Assembly (NCBI GenBank): GCA_020845755.1
Contig: JADLFE010000046.1
Coordinates: forward strand, 1-64,000
DNA: 64,000 bases
Source of the DNA: Phycisphaerales bacterium
Lineage (GTDB): Bacteria > Planctomycetota > Phycisphaerae > Phycisphaerales > UBA1924
Direction of reading: 5' to 3'
The notes under the pieces are model-generated. The model ran no database searches, was not told the origin of the DNA, and saw only the letters and a program-made list of their open reading frames with translations. Shown piece after piece: positions 3,583-47,611 of this stretch. Position 1 is the stretch's first letter; the number at the start of each line of letters is the position of its first letter. The position numbers and the translations under genes were made by a program.

Positions 3583-3667
3583 TGCCGGAGGAGGGAGTCG
3601 AACCCACACGCCTTTAAGGGGCGACGGATTTTGAATCCGTTGCGTCTGCCAGTTCCGCCACTCCGGC
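3583..3667 (-). tRNA. tRNA-Leu (anticodon CAA)
   Basis: An 85-base class II tRNA on the minus strand. The acceptor stem GCCGGAG pairs with CTCCGGC. The anticodon stem ACGGA/TCCGT encloses the loop TTCAAAA with anticodon CAA. There is a long variable arm (CGCCCCTTAAAGGCG) and a T arm with GGTTCGACTCC. The 3' CCA is not encoded, so it must be added by a nucleotidyltransferase. Confidence 0.95.
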
Positions 3668-39815: not shown

Positions 39816-40568
39816 CTACGGCAGCCGCTCCAGAAACGTGTCCGTCACTTCCTTCATTGTCCGCGCCGATCCGTCATAAAACGCTGCGTCAAACTTCCCG
39901 GGTTTGCCCGGCTTGGTTGCATGGACGCGCCCGATTCTTGCGACGTGCTCTGCTCGCCTGAAGTCCAGAACGCCTGAGGTCTGCGTCGGCGGAGGTCCTT
40001 CGTCTTGCTGTACAACCGCCGAATCGATCGCAACCGGGATCGTTCCGGGCGATTGGATCAGGCGAATCCGAGCATGCACACTCCGGCCCGCCGGCGGGTT
40101 GTCATAGTCATCAGGGTCTCCCGACAACCCGGAGTGTCCTGTCGCATTCACGGCATAGGTCCGCGTCAGCGTTCTCCCGTACCACGCCACCGTGCTCGGG
40201 CATACAAGCACCAGCCTGGTTGCGTACTGCTCGGTAGAGGTCTCGCCCGCCGCGCCGAACATCGTCTGTACCGTGACGGCCCAGTTGGGCATCGTCGTAT
40301 AAGGACGGCCCAGGCCCGGCGAAACACCCTTGTACAAGTCCGCGTATCCCTCGAACGCGAGGTGAATCTGCCGCAGGTTTGACAGGCAGGCCGCCTGTCG
40401 CGCGGACTCGCGGGCGGTTGCGAGCGTGGGGAGGAGAATCGCGACGAGGATCGCGACGACCGCGATTACAACCAGCAACTCAATGAGCGAGAATGCGCGT
40501 CGCACGGGCCGAGTGTAACGAGCATTTGCGGCTTCGCCAGCGCGCCTGCCGGACCCGGTTATCGGCAT
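39816..40568 (-). CDS. prepilin-like protein with N-methylation motif (DUF1559/H-X9-DG type)
   Basis: A 250-residue protein of the large planctomycete family of prepilin-like proteins. The leader ends in RRA and the helix is [24 protein letters not shown], with the conserved [21 protein letters not shown] after it. The C-terminus has [17 protein letters not shown], a form of the ending these proteins share. It is divergent from the his leader with only 63 bases between the two starts. Its function in surface structures is unknown. Confidence 0.85.
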
Positions 40569-40631
40569 TTATCAATCACCGTGACCCTGGGGAGCGCTTG
40601 ACGGAGCGATCGCACGCGCCAAGACTTTCTC

Positions 40632-40700
40632 GTGACCACGTTCTGGCACCATCACGCGCAGCATCACCACCACGCGATCCGTGGGGACGTGCACGCGTGA
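40632..40700 (+). CDS. hisL: his operon leader peptide, eight His codons
   Basis: A 22-codon reading frame, GTG start to TGA, encoding VTTFWHHHAQHHHHAIRGDV-H-A. Codons 6-8 and 11-14 are all histidine and codon 21 is an eighth. It lies 140 bases before hisG, followed by a terminator hairpin. This is the hallmark of a his attenuator: ribosomes stall on the His codons when charged tRNA-His is scarce. The region has no good ribosome site, so initiation may be leaderless from the TTGACG element at 40598. No alternative in-frame start exists before an upstream stop at 40599. Confidence 0.75.
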   Translation: MTTFWHHHAQHHHHAIRGDVHA

Positions 40701-40762
40701 CCTGATCGATCTTCAGGGGTTCACCGACGCCGGCCTCACGGGAGACCGGCGTTCTTGTTTTT
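40670..40762 (+). promoter_or_regulatory. histidine operon attenuator (mutually exclusive hairpins)
   Basis: Three competing pairings can be drawn. Hairpin 1:2 pairs CCACG (40670-40674, inside the last His codons) with CGTGG (40680-40684). Antiterminator 2:3 pairs CCGTGGGG (40679-40686) with CCTCACGG (40734-40741), with one G-U pair. Terminator 3:4 pairs ACGCCGGCCTC (40727-40737) with GAGACCGGCGT (40742-40752). A ribosome stalled on the His codons masks segment 1, so 2:3 forms and hisG is transcribed; a ribosome reaching the stop codon masks segment 2, so the terminator forms. Confidence 0.72.
40727..40762 (+). terminator. attenuator terminator upstream of hisG
   Basis: ACGCCGGCCTC and GAGACCGGCGT form a 10-pair stem with one mismatch around the loop ACGG, followed by TTCTTGTTTTT. 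It ends 78 bases before the hisG start. Confidence 0.85.
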
Positions 40763-40840
40763 GTCCGTGTATGTGTTCCGATCTCGGCCAGCGGGCCGCG
40801 TTCGGACCGAAAGTCGAGCCCGCCATCACAGGGAACCGTT

Positions 40841-41725
40841 ATGCCCGATGCATTCGACAACTCGATCAAACTCGCGCTTCCAAAGGGACGGATGGAAAAG
40901 GGTGTGCAGGCGCTGCTCGCCGACGCGGGGGTCGTCCTGCGTGCCAGCAGCCGCGGGTATCGCCCCGAAGTGCTGATCCCAGGTTCGCCTGCGCCGGTCA
41001 GCGCGAAGATCCTCAAACCGCAGAACATCATCGAAATGCTCCACGCCGGATCGCGTGACATCGGATTTGCGGGCGCGGATTGGGTCGCAGAACTCGACGC
41101 GGACCTGGTCGAACTCATGGACACGGGGCTTGACGTCGTGCGGCTCGTGGCTGCCGCCCCGCCCGAAGTGCTCGACCGCGGGCGAGTGCCGCAGCATTCG
41201 ATTGTTGTCGCCTCCGAGTACGAGCGTCTCACCAAACGCTGGATCACCTCGCGGAATCTCGACGCACGCTACGTCCGCTCATTCGGCGCGACGGAAGTGT
41301 TCCCGCCGGAGGATGCGGACTGCATCGTCGACGTTGCCGCGACGGGCGCGACGCTTGTTGCCAACGGGCTCGAGGTGTTCGATCAACTTCTGACGAGTTC
41401 GACGCGGCTCTACGCGAACCCGGCCGCGCTGGGGCGCCGGGAGACGCGAGAGTTGGCCGATCGCCTTGTGCTCCTGCTTGGTTCGGTGCTCGAGGCGCGG
41501 AAGCGTGTGATGCTGGAGGTAAACGTGCCACGCGAGAAACTCGAGGCGGTGTGCCGCGTGATCCCTTGCATGCGCGAACCGACAATCTCGCCGCTCCACG
41601 CCGAGTCCGGCTACGCCGTCAAGGCCGCCGTCCCGCGCGAACAATTGCCGAAACTCATCCCGGACATTAAATCGGCCGGAGGCACTGATATCGTGGTCTC
41701 TCCAGTCGCGCAGATCGTTCCATGA
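40841..41725 (+). CDS. hisG: ATP phosphoribosyltransferase, long form
   Basis: First enzyme of histidine synthesis: joins ATP and PRPP to give phosphoribosyl-ATP. At 294 residues it is the long form. The catalytic domains have IKLALPKGRM, the substrate segment DIGFAGADWVAE and the PRPP loop IVDVAATGATLVANGL. From about residue 215 a C-terminal regulatory (HisG_C) domain, LEVNVPREKLEAVCRVIPCM, suggests feedback inhibition by histidine without HisZ. It is the first structural gene of the operon; a GGGAA ribosome site precedes the ATG. Confidence 0.95.
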   Translation: MPDAFDNSIKLALPKGRMEKGVQALLADAGVVLRASSRGYRPEVLIPGSPAPVSAKILKPQNIIEMLHAGSRDIGFAGADWVAELDADLVELMDTGLDVVRLVAAAPPEVLDRGRVPQHSIVVASEYERLTKRWITSRNLDARYVRSFGATEVFPPEDADCIVDVAATGATLVANGLEVFDQLLTSSTRLYANPAALGRRETRELADRLVLLLGSVLEARKRVMLEVNVPREKLEAVCRVIPCMREPTISPLHAESGYAVKAAVPREQLPKLIPDIKSAGGTDIVVSPVAQIVP

Positions 41726-41783
41726 AGCAGGTCCAGGCGACCAGCACGCCGCACGACCAATCGCGGCGTTGATCGGAGTGTGC

Positions 41784-42899
41784 ATGTCAACCGACAACAC
41801 CATGACCTCCCGCATGGCCTCGGGCGTCGCAATCCACTCCGCGATCGTTTCGCGCGGTGCATACAGCGTTCCTCGCGCGCCCGGCCCGATCGATCTTCAC
41901 CTCGACGCCAACGAGGGGACTGTCGTGTGGGACGGCCTTGAGGACTGCATCCACGAAGCGAGCAACCTGCGTCGATATCCGAGCGCTTCGCAGATTGAAG
42001 CCGCGCTGGCCGCAAGATTCGGCGTGAGGCCGTCGCAGGTGATCGTGACCGCCGGCGGCGATGATGCGCTCGACCGCGCCTGTCGCATGACACTCTCCCC
42101 CGCGCGATCGCTCCTGCTCCCCGAGCCGAGTTTCGAGATGTTCCGACGCTATGCGGAACTCGCCAGGGCCCAGGTGGAGAGTGTGGCGTGGCACGGTGGG
42201 ACCTTCCCGTGCGCGCATGTGCTCGGGGCGATCACGCCCAGCACCGGCGTAATCGCGATCGTCTCTCCCAACAACCCAACCGGAGCGGTCGCGACCAGCC
42301 AGGATGTCGACGCGGTGTGCGATGCCGTGCGCGCGGCAGCGAGTTCCTCGCTGGTGATCGTTGATGCTGCCTACGCCGAATACGCCGAAGAAGACCTGAC
42401 CGCGGCGGCCCTTCGCCATCAGAACGCGATTGTGGTCCGCACGTTCTCGAAGGCATGGGCGCTGGCGGGACTTCGCGTTGGGTACGCGATCGGGGCTGAG
42501 GATCTGATCTCGTGCCTTCGGGTTGCCGGCGGGCCGTATCCCGTGTCGGGTCTTTCACTCGCGGTCGCATCGCGGGTTCTCGAACGCGGTCATGACGCCA
42601 TGCTCGATCAGGTGCGGCGTGTGAAAGCCAACCGCGACGTGCTCGCACGCTCGCTGACACAGTGGGGGGCCGAAACCCAACCCTCTCAGGCGAACTTTCT
42701 GCTCCTTCGCACGCAGCGAGCAGCAGAAATTCACGCTGCGCTCGCCTCTCGCGGCATCGCGATCCGGCGCTGGACCAATCGTCCAGGCCTCGAAGACGCG
42801 CTCCGCATCACCATCCCCGCACGCGAGACCGACTTCTCGCGTCTTTCAAGTGCTCTTGAGAGTGTCATCGTGCCCACTCGCACCATCAAGCATGTCTGA
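41784..42899 (+). CDS. hisC: histidinol-phosphate aminotransferase
   Basis: A 371-residue PLP enzyme of fold type I converting imidazole-acetol phosphate to histidinol phosphate with glutamate. Landmarks are DLHLDANEG, TAGGDDALDRACRM, VSPNNPTGAV, the PLP aspartate in VIVDAAYAEYAEE, the PLP lysine in VVRTFSKAWALAGLRVGYAIG, and the C-terminal arginine in LRITIPARE. The ATG at 41784 has GGAG 6 bases upstream. Second gene of the his operon. Confidence 0.94.
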   Translation: MSTDNTMTSRMASGVAIHSAIVSRGAYSVPRAPGPIDLHLDANEGTVVWDGLEDCIHEASNLRRYPSASQIEAALAARFGVRPSQVIVTAGGDDALDRACRMTLSPARSLLLPEPSFEMFRRYAELARAQVESVAWHGGTFPCAHVLGAITPSTGVIAIVSPNNPTGAVATSQDVDAVCDAVRAAASSSLVIVDAAYAEYAEEDLTAAALRHQNAIVVRTFSKAWALAGLRVGYAIGAEDLISCLRVAGGPYPVSGLSLAVASRVLERGHDAMLDQVRRVKANRDVLARSLTQWGAETQPSQANFLLLRTQRAAEIHAALASRGIAIRRWTNRPGLEDALRITIPARETDFSRLSSALESVIVPTRTIKHV

Positions 42900-42967
42900 T
42901 TCCAACGCAAGCCGCTATGACGTCTCGCGTTCACCGCAAACCCAAGACCCGCCCTCCGGAGCCCGCC

Positions 42968-43555
42968 ATGTCTACTCGCCAAGCCACGATCGAGCGCATG
43001 ACCAAGGAAACCAGCATCAAGGTTGCTCTCCGGCTTGCGCCGGGCGAGGTGAACGTCTCGACAGGGATCGGATTCCTTGATCATCTGCTCACCGCCCTCG
43101 CCACGCACTCCCGAATCTCGCTCGACCTCATCGCCAAGGGCGATCTCCACATCGACGATCATCACACGGCCGAGGACTGTGCCATCACGCTCGGCAAAGC
43201 CCTCGATACCGCGCTCGCGGATCGTCGCGGCATCGCCCGCTTCGGCTCCGCGTACGCACCGCTCGATGAATCGCTCGCGCGCGCCGTGATCGATCTGTCC
43301 GGCCGCGCATCCGCGGTCGTGGCGCTCGATCTCCGTCGCCCCATGATCGGCACGCTCGCCTGCGAGAACATCACGCACTTCTTGCAGACTCTCGCGATCA
43401 ATGCGCGGGCCGCGATCCACCTTGATGTCCTTCGCGGCGAGAACGATCATCACAAGGCCGAGGCCGCCTTCAAGGCCCTCGCCTTGGCGCTCCGTCAGGC
43501 CATCGCGATCGACGGCGATTCCATCCTCAGCACCAAGGGAGTGCTCGCGTCGTGA
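42968..43555 (+). CDS. hisB: imidazoleglycerol-phosphate dehydratase
   Basis: A 195-residue monofunctional dehydratase. The manganese-binding histidine motifs are GIGFLDHLLTALATHS, DDHHTAEDCAI and ENDHHKAEAAFKAL, in the normal two-half arrangement. There is no fused histidinol-phosphatase domain, so the phosphatase must be encoded elsewhere. The start at 42968 is favoured by GGAG 7 bases upstream; an in-frame ATG at 42917 would add 17 residues. Confidence 0.95.
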   Translation: MSTRQATIERMTKETSIKVALRLAPGEVNVSTGIGFLDHLLTALATHSRISLDLIAKGDLHIDDHHTAEDCAITLGKALDTALADRRGIARFGSAYAPLDESLARAVIDLSGRASAVVALDLRRPMIGTLACENITHFLQTLAINARAAIHLDVLRGENDHHKAEAAFKALALALRQAIAIDGDSILSTKGVLAS

Positions 43556-45024
43556 GCAACATCGTCGTGATCAAGACAGGCGTGGCAAACACCGCCTCCA
43601 TGCTCGCACTACTGCAGCGTCTGGGCGCGTCGCCCGTGCTCTCAAGCGATCCGCGAGACATCGCCACGGCCTCACACATCGTTCTCCCTGGCGTGGGGTC
43701 GTTCGGCGCTGGCATGCACGCGCTCCACCAGCACGGTCTTGCCGAGCCGCTCGTCGCACGCATGCATGCCGGCAAGCCCACGCTGTGCGTCTGCCTCGGC
43801 CTCCAACTCCTCGCCGAATCGAGCGAGGAATCACCCGGCGTGCGCGGGCTTGGTTTCTTGGCCGGCACGGTCACTCGATTCAGGAGCATCAACGCCGATC
43901 GCCCGCTCCGCGTGCCGCAGATGGGATGGAACTTCGTCGGGCCGTGGCGAGAGCGCGCCGGGTTCTGGGCCTACTACGCAAACTCCTACTGCCTGCGGAC
44001 GCCGCCGCCGAATATTGAGTGCGCGACATCCCACTATGGCACCCCGTTCGTCGCGTGCTTCCGCGATCGCGGGCTCCTGGCGTGCCAATTCCATCCCGAA
44101 CTGTCAGGCCTCGCCGGTCTCGAACTGACGCGAGACTGGCTTGCTGGTGTTCCGTCATCGATCTCGACATCTCCTTCAGTGTCTCCGACGCAACGAATCG
44201 AGCCGCCGGAATGGCTGCATGCCGCGAGCCCCCGTGCTGCCCAATTACCCGAGCGAACCCGCATCATCCCATGCCTTGACGTGCGAGGTGGACGCGTCGT
44301 GAAGGGTGTGCAATTCCAGGGCCTTCGCGACGCCGGAGATCCCGCCGAACTCGCCGCGATGTATGAATCGCAGGGTGCCGACGAACTCGTCATGCTCGAT
44401 GTCTCAGCGACGCCAGACGCCCGCGCTACCGCGACCGAGACTGTTCGCGCGATCCGCGCGCGTCTTTCCATTCCGCTCACTGTCGGCGGCGGCGTCCGAT
44501 CCATCGACGACGCGTGGCGTCTCCTCGATGCCGGCGCGGACAAAGTCGGGATCAACACCTCCGCCGTGCGCGATCCCTCGATCATCTCCGCAATCGCGGA
44601 GCGATTCGGCGTGCAATGCACCGTCATCGCCATTGACGCGAAGCGCGATCACTCCCGCACCGATCCCGCCTGGCGAGTTGTCATCCGCTCCGGCACCGAG
44701 GCGACCGACCTTGACGCTATCGATTGGGCTGTCGCGTGCGTCGAACGCGGGGCGGGTGAGATTCTCCTTACCAGCATGGACCGCGACGGCACGCACGCGG
44801 GCTATGACCTTGATCTCCTCAGCGCGGTGTCCGACGCCGTGCATGTGCCCGTCATCGCGTCAGGCGGCGCGGGTGGCCCAGAGCACCTCGCGGATGCGAT
44901 CCGCTCCGGCGCCGACGCCGTGCTCGCCGCGTCGATCTTTCACGATGCCATGTGGACCGTCGCCGGCGTGAAGCAATCGCTCGAGCGTCAGGGTATCGCG
45001 CTCCGCATGGAGACCAACGCATGA
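43552..45024 (+). CDS. hisHF: imidazole glycerol phosphate synthase, HisH-HisF fusion
   Basis: A 490-residue bifunctional enzyme. Residues 1-203 are the HisH glutaminase with catalytic Cys81 (CLGLQLL), His181 and Glu183 (FHPE). A linker of about 33 residues follows. Residues 236-490 are the HisF cyclase barrel with RIIPCLDVRGGRVVKGVQF (Asp243), VGGGVRSI, INTSAV and SMDRDGT (Asp410). The order glutaminase-cyclase is that of yeast HIS7. Most bacteria use two separate subunits. It overlaps hisB and hisA by 4 bases. Confidence 0.95.
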   Translation: MSNIVVIKTGVANTASMLALLQRLGASPVLSSDPRDIATASHIVLPGVGSFGAGMHALHQHGLAEPLVARMHAGKPTLCVCLGLQLLAESSEESPGVRGLGFLAGTVTRFRSINADRPLRVPQMGWNFVGPWRERAGFWAYYANSYCLRTPPPNIECATSHYGTPFVACFRDRGLLACQFHPELSGLAGLELTRDWLAGVPSSISTSPSVSPTQRIEPPEWLHAASPRAAQLPERTRIIPCLDVRGGRVVKGVQFQGLRDAGDPAELAAMYESQGADELVMLDVSATPDARATATETVRAIRARLSIPLTVGGGVRSIDDAWRLLDAGADKVGINTSAVRDPSIISAIAERFGVQCTVIAIDAKRDHSRTDPAWRVVIRSGTEATDLDAIDWAVACVERGAGEILLTSMDRDGTHAGYDLDLLSAVSDAVHVPVIASGGAGGPEHLADAIRSGADAVLAASIFHDAMWTVAGVKQSLERQGIALRMETNA

Positions 45025-46355
45025 TCATCCCATCGATCGATCTCATGGGCGGTTCGACCGTGCAACTCGTCGGCGGGCGCGAGAAGGCGCTCGATGCGGG
45101 CGATCCGCATCCCATCCTCGACCAGTTCTCCCTCGCTGGCGAAGTTGCCGTCATCGATCTCGACGCCGCGATTGGCTCGGGCAGCAACCGCGAGTTGATC
45201 GAGTCGCTTACACGCCGTTCGCCGTGCCGCGTCGGTGGCGGGATTCGCGACTACGACACCGCCGTCCGCTGGCTTAATGCCGGTGCCGCCAAGATCATCA
45301 TCGGCACCGCGGCCAAACCCGAACTGCTCTCTCGCCTTCCGCGCGAGAGGCTCATCGCCGCCGTCGACTGTTTCAACGGCCGCGTCGTCGTGAAGGGATG
45401 GCGCGAGGGCACCGGCGAACTCGCCGCCGATGCGCTCCGCCGGATCGCGCCCTACGTCTCCGGGTTCCTTGTGACGTTCGTTGAGCGAGAAGGCCGGCTC
45501 GTGGGCCTCGACGTCGCCCAAGCCAGGGAGGTCATCGACGCCGCGAAAGGCGTTCGCGTCACGATCGCGGGCGGCGTTACCACCGCGGACGAAATCGCGA
45601 CGCTCGATCGCATGGGCGCCGATGCGCAGGTCGGCATGGCGATCTATACCGGTCGCTTGTCGCTCGCCGACGCCATCGCCGCGCCGCTTGTTTCCGATCG
45701 TCCGGATGGTCTGTGGCCAACCGTCGTCGTCAACGAGCACGGCATCGCACTTGGTCTTGCCTACTCAGATCATGAATCGCTCCGCGAGGCCGTCCGTCTC
45801 CGCCGAGGCGTCTACAGGTCACGCACGCGGGGCTTGTGGATCAAAGGCGAGTCCTCCGGCGCTACGCAAGACCTCCTCCGCGTCGATCTCGACTGTGATC
45901 GTGATGCGATCCGGTTTGTCGTCCGCCAGCGTCCGCCCGGGTTCTGTCACAACAACACGCCCACGTGCTGGGGTGAACATGCGGGCATTGGCCCGGGCCT
46001 CTCCGCGCTCGAGCGAACGCTCGTTGATCGCAAGCACGCCGCGCCCGAGGGCAGCTACACGCAACGGCTTTTCAACAACCCGGATCTGCTCGCAGCAAAG
46101 ATTCTCGAAGAGGCCCACGAACTCGTCGAAGCGAGTCAGCCCGATCACATCGTCGCCGAGGCCGCGGATGTGCTGTATTTCGCGCTCACGAAACTCGTCG
46201 CGACAGGGAAGTCGCTGAGTGACGTTGCGGTAGAGCTCGATCGCCGCGCGCTCAAGGTCACGCGCCGCCCCGGAAACGCCAAGCCTGCAACGAATAGCAC
46301 GACACCTCCCAACGCCCCGCCGGCATCGCCTCACGCCTCGGAGTCTGAGTCATGA
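45021..46355 (+). CDS. hisAIE: HisA-HisI-HisE trifunctional fusion
   Basis: A 444-residue protein uniting three histidine enzymes. Residues 1-222 are the HisA barrel (IIPSIDLMGGSTVQLVGGR, Asp7; AAVDCFNGRVVVKGW; ISA-type VTIAGGVTTADEI). Residues 228-318 are HisI, phosphoribosyl-AMP cyclohydrolase, with metal residues Asp291, Asp293, Asp295 and Cys292, Cys309, Cys316. Residues 325-418 are HisE, phosphoribosyl-ATP pyrophosphatase, with AAKILEEAHELVEA and EAADVLYFAL. A Pro/Ser/Thr tail ends it. The start (ATGA overlap with hisHF) is secure. Confidence 0.93.
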   Translation: MIIPSIDLMGGSTVQLVGGREKALDAGDPHPILDQFSLAGEVAVIDLDAAIGSGSNRELIESLTRRSPCRVGGGIRDYDTAVRWLNAGAAKIIIGTAAKPELLSRLPRERLIAAVDCFNGRVVVKGWREGTGELAADALRRIAPYVSGFLVTFVEREGRLVGLDVAQAREVIDAAKGVRVTIAGGVTTADEIATLDRMGADAQVGMAIYTGRLSLADAIAAPLVSDRPDGLWPTVVVNEHGIALGLAYSDHESLREAVRLRRGVYRSRTRGLWIKGESSGATQDLLRVDLDCDRDAIRFVVRQRPPGFCHNNTPTCWGEHAGIGPGLSALERTLVDRKHAAPEGSYTQRLFNNPDLLAAKILEEAHELVEASQPDHIVAEAADVLYFALTKLVATGKSLSDVAVELDRRALKVTRRPGNAKPATNSTTPPNAPPASPHASESES

Positions 46356-47611
46356 GCCTCATACGCCGCTACAACGCCGCCGACTTCGTGCCAAAGCGCG
46401 GCTCATCGGTCGACACCGCAACGCTCGCGCGGGCCGCGGAGATCATCGAGCGTGTGCGATCGGGTCGGGAGCCTGCGCTCGTGGAGATCGCAACATCGCT
46501 CGGTGATCTTGCGCCGGGCGGCAAAGTGCTGTACACACGCGACGATCTCGCCACCGCGGAGAAGTCGCTCTCCGCGAGCGATCGAGAGCTCCTCCGCCGC
46601 ATCGCCGATCGCATACGCACATTCGCCGAGGCGCAGCGGGCATCGCTCCGCGATCTTGATGTGTCCGTTCCCGCCGGCCGCGCCGGGCACAGTGTGGCGC
46701 CGGTCGACGCCGCGGGCTGCTACGCGCCGGGCGGTCGTTTCCCGCTGCCGTCGAGCGTCCTGATGACGGCCATTACCGCGCGTGCCGCCGGCGTACAGCG
46801 CGTCATAGTCGCGTCGCCAAAGCCCACGCCCGCCACGCTCGCGGCCGCCTCGATCGCCGGCGCCGACATGCTCCTGGCCATCGGCGGTGCTCAGGCCATC
46901 GCCGCCATGGCGTTCGGCGTTCATGTCCCCGCGTGCGACGTCATCGCCGGCCCCGGCAATCGCTACGTCACCGCGGCAAAGAAACTCCTCGCGGGCGAAG
47001 TGGGCATCGACATGCTCGCCGGCCCGTCCGAACTCACAATTCTTGCCGACGACTCCGCCGAGGGAGCGATCGTTGCCGCGGATCTTCTCGCCCAGGCCGA
47101 GCACGATGATGATGCCGTACCGATCCTCGTTACAACCAGCAATTTACTCGCATCACGCGTGGAATCCGAATTGCACTCGCAGCTCATGACGCTTCCGACC
47201 GCGCCCACGGCACGCAAGGCGCTCGCAAATGGCGCCATCGTGCTTGCGTCGTCGCTCGCCGAGGCCGCCGACGTCTGCAATCGCATCGCGCCCGAGCACC
47301 TCGAAGTGATCGTCCGCAGCGAAGCCGACGTGCTCCCCCGTCTCCGCCACTACGGCGCGATCTTCCTCGGCCAATCCAGCGCCGAAGTCTTCGGAGACTA
47401 CGGTGTCGGCCCCAACCACACCCTGCCCACCGGCGGCACTGCGAGATTCTCCGGCGGTCTCTCCGTCATCCATTTCCTTCGCATCCGAACTTGGATGAAA
47501 CTCGACAATGCCACCGCCCTCGCAAGCGTCGTGAGCGATTCCGCACAGATTGGAAGAATCGAAGGCCTGGAAGCCCACGCACGCGCAGCCGAAAAACGTG
47601 CCGCGCGATAA
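46352..47611 (+). CDS. hisD: histidinol dehydrogenase
   Basis: A 419-residue zinc enzyme oxidising histidinol to histidine with two NAD. Landmarks are the GGRFPLPSSVLMTAITARAAGV stretch, CDVIAGPGNRYVTAAKKLL, DMLAGPSELTILAD, the zinc and catalytic residues in AQAEHDDDAVPILVT and the base in IAPEHLEVI, and GPNHTLPTGGTARFSGGL. It starts inside the hisAIE stop (ATGA) and ends the operon. Confidence 0.95.
   Translation: MSLIRRYNAADFVPKRGSSVDTATLARAAEIIERVRSGREPALVEIATSLGDLAPGGKVLYTRDDLATAEKSLSASDRELLRRIADRIRTFAEAQRASLRDLDVSVPAGRAGHSVAPVDAAGCYAPGGRFPLPSSVLMTAITARAAGVQRVIVASPKPTPATLAAASIAGADMLLAIGGAQAIAAMAFGVHVPACDVIAGPGNRYVTAAKKLLAGEVGIDMLAGPSELTILADDSAEGAIVAADLLAQAEHDDDAVPILVTTSNLLASRVESELHSQLMTLPTAPTARKALANGAIVLASSLAEAADVCNRIAPEHLEVIVRSEADVLPRLRHYGAIFLGQSSAEVFGDYGVGPNHTLPTGGTARFSGGLSVIHFLRIRTWMKLDNATALASVVSDSAQIGRIEGLEAHARAAEKRAAR

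Follow-up and report, generated by a model that had tools for sequence, protein, structure and literature searches.

Positions 40598-40765 of the window (the whole stretch of 64,000 nucleotides that was analysed) were assigned, with a probability of about 0.92, to a ribosome-mediated transcription attenuator that would control the his operon by means of a leaderless leader peptide. The assignment is based on sequence analysis and RNA folding models, and the coordinates of the predicted elements are collected in Table 1. From hisG onwards, the operon is complete and consists of hisG, hisC, hisB, hisHF, hisAIE, and a hisD-like gene. Two of these genes, together covering 43552-46355, are fusions: hisH-hisF and hisA-hisI-hisE.

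Table 1. Predicted elements of the attenuator and genes of the his operon in the window.
Feature	Position	Strand	Basis and remarks
-35 element TTGACG	40598..40603	+	Direct reading; TTGAC position shared among leaders
-10 element AAGACT	40621..40626	+	Direct reading; 17 nt spacer, 5 nt before GTG; putative start site
hisL, predicted leaderless His-rich leader peptide gene	40632..40700	+	22 codons, VTTFWHHHAQHHHHAIRGDVHA; GTG start, TGA at 40698-40700
Putative regulatory His codons 6-8 (40647-40655) and 11-14 (40662-40673)	40647..40673	+	Direct reading
1:2 hairpin, candidate protector or pause hairpin	40652..40700	+	Folding; His codons (segment 1) paired with the frame end (segment 2)
Segment 2, CCGTGGGG, predicted antiterminator 5' half	40679..40686	+	Folding; co-adaptation across leaders
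3:4 terminator hairpin, GACGCCGGCCTCACGGGAGACCGGCGTT	40726..40753	+	28 nt, -17.6 kcal/mol; stem covaries in 28 leaders
Segment 3, CCTCACGG, predicted antiterminator 3' half	40734..40741	+	Folding; overlaps terminator 5' arm and loop
Terminator tail, CTTGTTTTTGTC	40754..40765	+	Direct reading; T-rich tails in relatives
hisG, ATP phosphoribosyltransferase	40841..41725	+	TIGR00070, TIGR03455
hisC-like, histidinol-phosphate transaminase	41769..42899	+	TIGR01141, under its curated cut-off
hisB, imidazoleglycerol-phosphate dehydratase	42917..43555	+	Family search
hisH-hisF fusion	43552..45024	+	TIGR01855 and TIGR00735 in a single frame
hisA-hisI-hisE fusion	45021..46355	+	His_biosynth, PRA-CH, and PRA-PH in a single frame
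hisD-like (histidinol dehydrogenase), final operon gene	46352..47611	+	Reading frame and sequence

Direct reading of hisL confirmed the 22-codon frame described in the earlier note, with three and then four consecutive histidines and an eighth at codon 21 (40692-40694). With 8 His among 22 codons, hisL is a short frame rich in codons for the amino acid of the operon. Model R1 matches it at an E value of 6.9e-13, the sequence itself being among those used to build R1. Such runs were scored as at least 5 His codons in 9. On the coding strand, they were present within 350 nt upstream of hisG at 59 of 104 loci; on the opposite strand upstream of hisG, none was present at the 104 loci. The controls gave 1/92 farther upstream and 1/104 within hisG. 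The His runs upstream of hisG are far beyond chance. Codon usage for His in the leaders is mixed (202 CAT, 186 CAC), and the peptide sequence beyond the run is not conserved, its context differing among relatives.

A HisG search of 101 relatives, mostly metagenome-assembled genomes, yielded 30 loci. Among the 28 close relatives with the same HisG type (L002-L029), a His-rich mini-ORF lies upstream of hisG in 26, the exceptions being L023 and L029; a later model search gave a His-poor candidate at L029. Loss of the His run or of the terminator in close relatives, which the earlier note had named as evidence against an attenuator, was thus not the pattern observed. The covariance model built from 28 leaders matched in 56 of 397 genomes of the class (E up to 1e-3) and in 27 of 392 genomes of the phylum (E up to 1e-4). 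Inspection of 31 matches revealed a HisG match just downstream in 28, nearly all with a His-rich peptide. Secondary matches of the model turned out to include Thr-rich leaders before thrS and Phe-rich leaders before pheA. Weak model matches lacking the matching codon run were rejected as chance. According to the phylum search, the loci L050, L053, and L068 lie in genomes of the same phylum and of a different class. About half of the 80 loci in a named scan carry a His leader, among them loci whose titles read Planctomycetota, Myxococcota, Acidobacteriota, Gemmatimonadota, Sumerlaeota, and Gammaproteobacteria, although titles of metagenome-assembled genomes may be wrong.

No His leader was found upstream of the distant-type hisG genes in families f5 and f6 of the order. 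Related hisG genes without a leader occur in Alphaproteobacteria, Sumerlaeota, and Myxococcota (L048, L069, L047, L061, and others). In the HisG tree, whose bootstrap had not settled, no single origin of the leader was apparent; the tree implies 19 gains or losses, only 4 of them forced by well-supported branches. In family f1 (G004-G007 and others), about half of the genomes, many of them over 90% complete, have no HisG match, and their order-mates carry a distant HisG. Histidine auxotrophy or a different enzyme is possible in the HisG-less genomes.

The predicted intrinsic terminator at 40726-40765, with a displaced T run, is located between the leader frame and the first gene. Its position 40762 is 78 nt ahead of hisG (40841), as the earlier note had given for its strong terminator; the distance from the hisL stop codon to the stem had been put at 27 bases and was measured as 25 nt. 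A simple terminator scan misses the hairpin because the T run begins only 4 nt past the stem. Since the upstream neighbour (39816-40568) is encoded on the other strand, the terminator does not belong to that gene. In nearly all of the 63 leaders, a GC-rich terminator hairpin with a T-rich tail is found at a similar position 3' of the leader stop, and hisG usually begins about 50-140 nt farther on. The tails of the relatives contain 5.8 T per 12 nt versus 2.0 in the next stretch. The T run of some leaders is short, and L060 and L093 have no clear one. Across 28 leaders, the stem showed 13 two-sided changes, a number reached by none of 500 shuffles.

Folding of 40632-40762 gave the 1:2 hairpin together with the terminator, and all 200 shuffled sequences folded worse (z -3.3). 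The 1:2 hairpin includes CCACG (40670-40674) paired with CGTGG (40680-40684). To mimic a stalled ribosome, the 5' part was masked and 40672-40745 was folded; segments 2 and 3 then paired over 8 bp with one G-U. This pairing and the terminator are mutually exclusive in the fold. The segments for which exclusive 1:2, 2:3, and 3:4 pairings had been proposed therefore fold as described, the 2:3 fold that excludes the terminator being obtained under this masking. In 54 of 56 leaders, segment 2 overlaps the region of the stop codon. In the computed structures, then, the antiterminator excludes the terminator and would be hidden once a ribosome sits on the stop codon.

In the 60 leaders compared, the 2:3 energy with the own partner was -16.97 kcal/mol versus -15.62 +/- 0.21 kcal/mol with the partners of other leaders, and none of 5000 permutations was as good. 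The own-minus-other difference was -1.37 in real and -0.05 +/- 0.20 in shuffled sequences; shuffled sequences show no preference for the own partner, so composition does not explain the co-adaptation. One matched change is seen in L098, where CGCCGACCG stands opposite CGGTTGGCG. The comparison of hisG upstream regions advised in the earlier note supported its interpretation: the His run, the terminator, and the alternative pairings are conserved in relatives, and the terminator stem covaries. On fixed columns, the 2:3 helix showed covariation little above shuffles, which is weakly supportive. This signal is weak because the register differs between leaders, and the support for the helix comes from the register-free test.

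The switch was also modelled by folding the 60 leaders with a 12-nt ribosome footprint. The modelled occupancy of segment 3 was 0.77 with the ribosome stalled on His codons, 0.39 with the ribosome at the stop codon, and 0.53 without a ribosome; shuffled sequences gave 0.62 stalled and 0.43 at the stop. In the case of the window's own leader, the modelled switch is weak (0.73, 0.61, and 0.64, respectively) because the antiterminator there involves the loop and the upper part of the stem.

Given the 5 nt that separate the -10 element from the GTG, transcription is expected to begin at the start codon or beside it. In 54 of 63 leaders, TTGAC is found 34-40 nt ahead of the start codon. An element agreeing with TTGACA in at least 5 of its 6 bases occurs 24-40 nt upstream of the start in 57 of 63 leaders, compared with 3% at random positions. 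A [TA]ANNNT box is frequent 5-10 nt before the leader start. No 5-base Shine-Dalgarno motif precedes any of the 63 leader starts, that of hisL included, which agrees with the missing ribosome site in the earlier note. Because of the fixed position of TTGAC and the absence of this motif, the hisL leader peptide is strongly predicted to be leaderless. The promoter is thus spaced for transcription from the start codon, and the constant distance across leaders backs a leaderless start, which the earlier note had offered as a possibility. The start codons were picked partly by promoter score, so the procedure favours this reading; in-frame choices near the His run are narrow.

Starting from these elements, which are conserved, pair in mutually exclusive ways, and are co-adapted, we infer the start site, translation, stalling, and regulatory response as follows. 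RNA polymerase would start at or beside the GTG at 40632, and a ribosome, probably loaded straight at the 5' end, would translate the His-rich peptide. When charged tRNA-His is ample, the ribosome would reach the stop codon and cover segment 2, and the 3:4 hairpin would form and terminate transcription before hisG. When charged tRNA-His is scarce, the ribosome would stall on the His codons, segments 2 and 3 would pair, the terminator would be blocked, and hisG-C-B-HF-AIE-D would be transcribed. Without translation, the 1:2 and 3:4 hairpins would form together and lead to termination.

The hisL attenuator is part of a wider set of leaders in these bacteria. Thr-rich short frames were found before thrS in 25 of 50 cases (14/30 in the first set and 11/20 in the second), the own genome included; on the strand opposite thrS, there was 1 in the first set and 0 in the second. 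The thrS leader of the own genome (L299, contig C36 of G000) encodes the Thr-rich peptide MTGPTTTNTTTTQPRA and has a GC-rich hairpin downstream of it; TATACT lies 6 nt before its ATG, and the leader is predicted to be leaderless. In sister families, Leu-rich leaders, also predicted to be leaderless, precede leuA in 7 of 10 genes (L240-L244, L246, L248). Both the thrS and leuA leaders have the same promoter-to-start geometry as the His leaders. Phe-rich leaders precede pheA in 2 genomes. In other families of the class, L167 and L168 have Phe/Tyr-rich leader peptides before pheA-like genes. The coding-strand cross-controls (Thr or Leu before trpE, Leu or His before thrS, and Thr before leuA) gave none; for Thr before trpE, the count was 0/30. 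Trp-rich leaders were not found before trpE, bar one weak candidate (L298), nor were Phe-rich leaders before the prephenate dehydratase genes of the order. Judged by these predicted peptides, the amino acid of the leader follows the downstream gene (His with hisG, Thr with thrS, Leu with leuA, and Phe with pheA).

Four other explanations were weighed against this mechanism. The same attenuator might use a leader peptide read from an internal start on a longer transcript. The merely predicted start site, the poor -10 box of the window (AAGACT), and a simple promoter scan that found nothing at hisL speak for an internal start; the placement of TTGAC, the lack of Shine-Dalgarno motifs, and the geometry shared with the thrS and leuA leaders oppose it, and we consider it unlikely. 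More improbable still is that Rho, in a translation-linked manner, or translational coupling to hisG is the main determinant of read-through, the hairpin marking merely an RNA end or processing site. The displaced and sometimes short T runs would fit such a role, but not the recurrence of hairpin and tail at a similar place, the usual distance of hisG from the hairpin, or the co-adaptation of the terminator 5' arm with segment 2.

Poly-His binds metals, and the peptide could accordingly be a functional product (for example, a metal-binding one) or stall ribosomes in response to metals, its place before hisG being incidental or serving another signal. This is very improbable, as the enriched residue changes with the downstream gene, the peptide outside the run is not conserved, and the terminator and antiterminator are conserved alongside. 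A chance His codon run beside an unrelated terminator has a negligible probability: CAC and CAT triplets are not rare in a GC-rich genome, but the strand and position controls, the conservation, and the orientation of the upstream neighbour contradict it.

The attenuator with a predicted leaderless peptide, which is thus preferred, was compared with known systems. The earlier note had taken the enteric his attenuator as its model. The comparative tests supported that logic, but membership of the enteric family by sequence and structure was not borne out: Rfam RF00514 (His_leader) gave no match in the window at the gathering threshold, in 40550-40860 at E up to 10, or at 16 more loci at E up to 1. 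The T-box covariance model did not match the hisL region either, and a sub-threshold Thr_leader match in L087 was dismissed as noise. The sole Rfam match in the window is a tRNA gene (3583-3667, - strand). Like the enteric element, the one described here combines a poly-His peptide, exclusive hairpins, and a terminator before hisG; unlike it, it is predicted to be leaderless, has segment 2 at the stop codon, and belongs to another phylum. The mycobacterial polycysteine leaderless uORFs are likewise short frames in which a single amino acid is repeated and which control a downstream operon, but the repeated residue is cysteine and they are not his attenuators.

His attenuators have been predicted in the Bacillus cereus group, Eubacteriales, and Erysipelotrichales (PMC9413887), and hisS/hisZ leaders have been reported (PMC2965389). 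As far as the available portions of these papers go, those systems share with ours a predicted His peptide and a terminator and antiterminator before his genes outside Proteobacteria, but they are from Firmicutes only, and a leaderless start is not described there. The earlier note regarded a leaderless leader peptide as unusual; precedents exist in Sinorhizobium meliloti trpL (PMC7298713), in leuL/trpL/ilvL/thrL, including thrS, of Streptomyces lividans (PMC8079986), and at Corynebacterium ilvBNC (PMC11857589). In these cases, as predicted here, the transcript starts at the leader start codon, and genes for amino acids or tRNA synthetases are attenuated; these systems are from other phyla, and the portions consulted describe none of them as a his leader. 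In keeping with the earlier note, no report of an attenuator of this kind in Planctomycetota was found in the open-licence literature, where absence is not proof.

The design of the his attenuator would extend beyond Proteobacteria and a few Firmicutes, and the leaders outline an amino acid regulon in a bacterial group about which little is known. Separated transcription and translation have been claimed for Gemmata, and the claim is disputed. Gemmata belongs to a class other than Phycisphaerae. The predicted attenuator requires the two processes to be coupled, a matter of dispute in Planctomycetota; since attenuation needs a ribosome close behind the polymerase, the leaders make coupling directly testable in this phylum. 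We lean slightly towards the view that leaderless attenuators control hisG, thrS, leuA, and pheA in Planctomycetota (in the class Phycisphaerae and certain other classes at the least), and hence that transcription and translation would be tightly coupled, with the ribosome boarding the 5' end of the emerging RNA. On the same view, the his version, which occurs together with its hisG in several phyla, would be old or would have moved horizontally as a unit.
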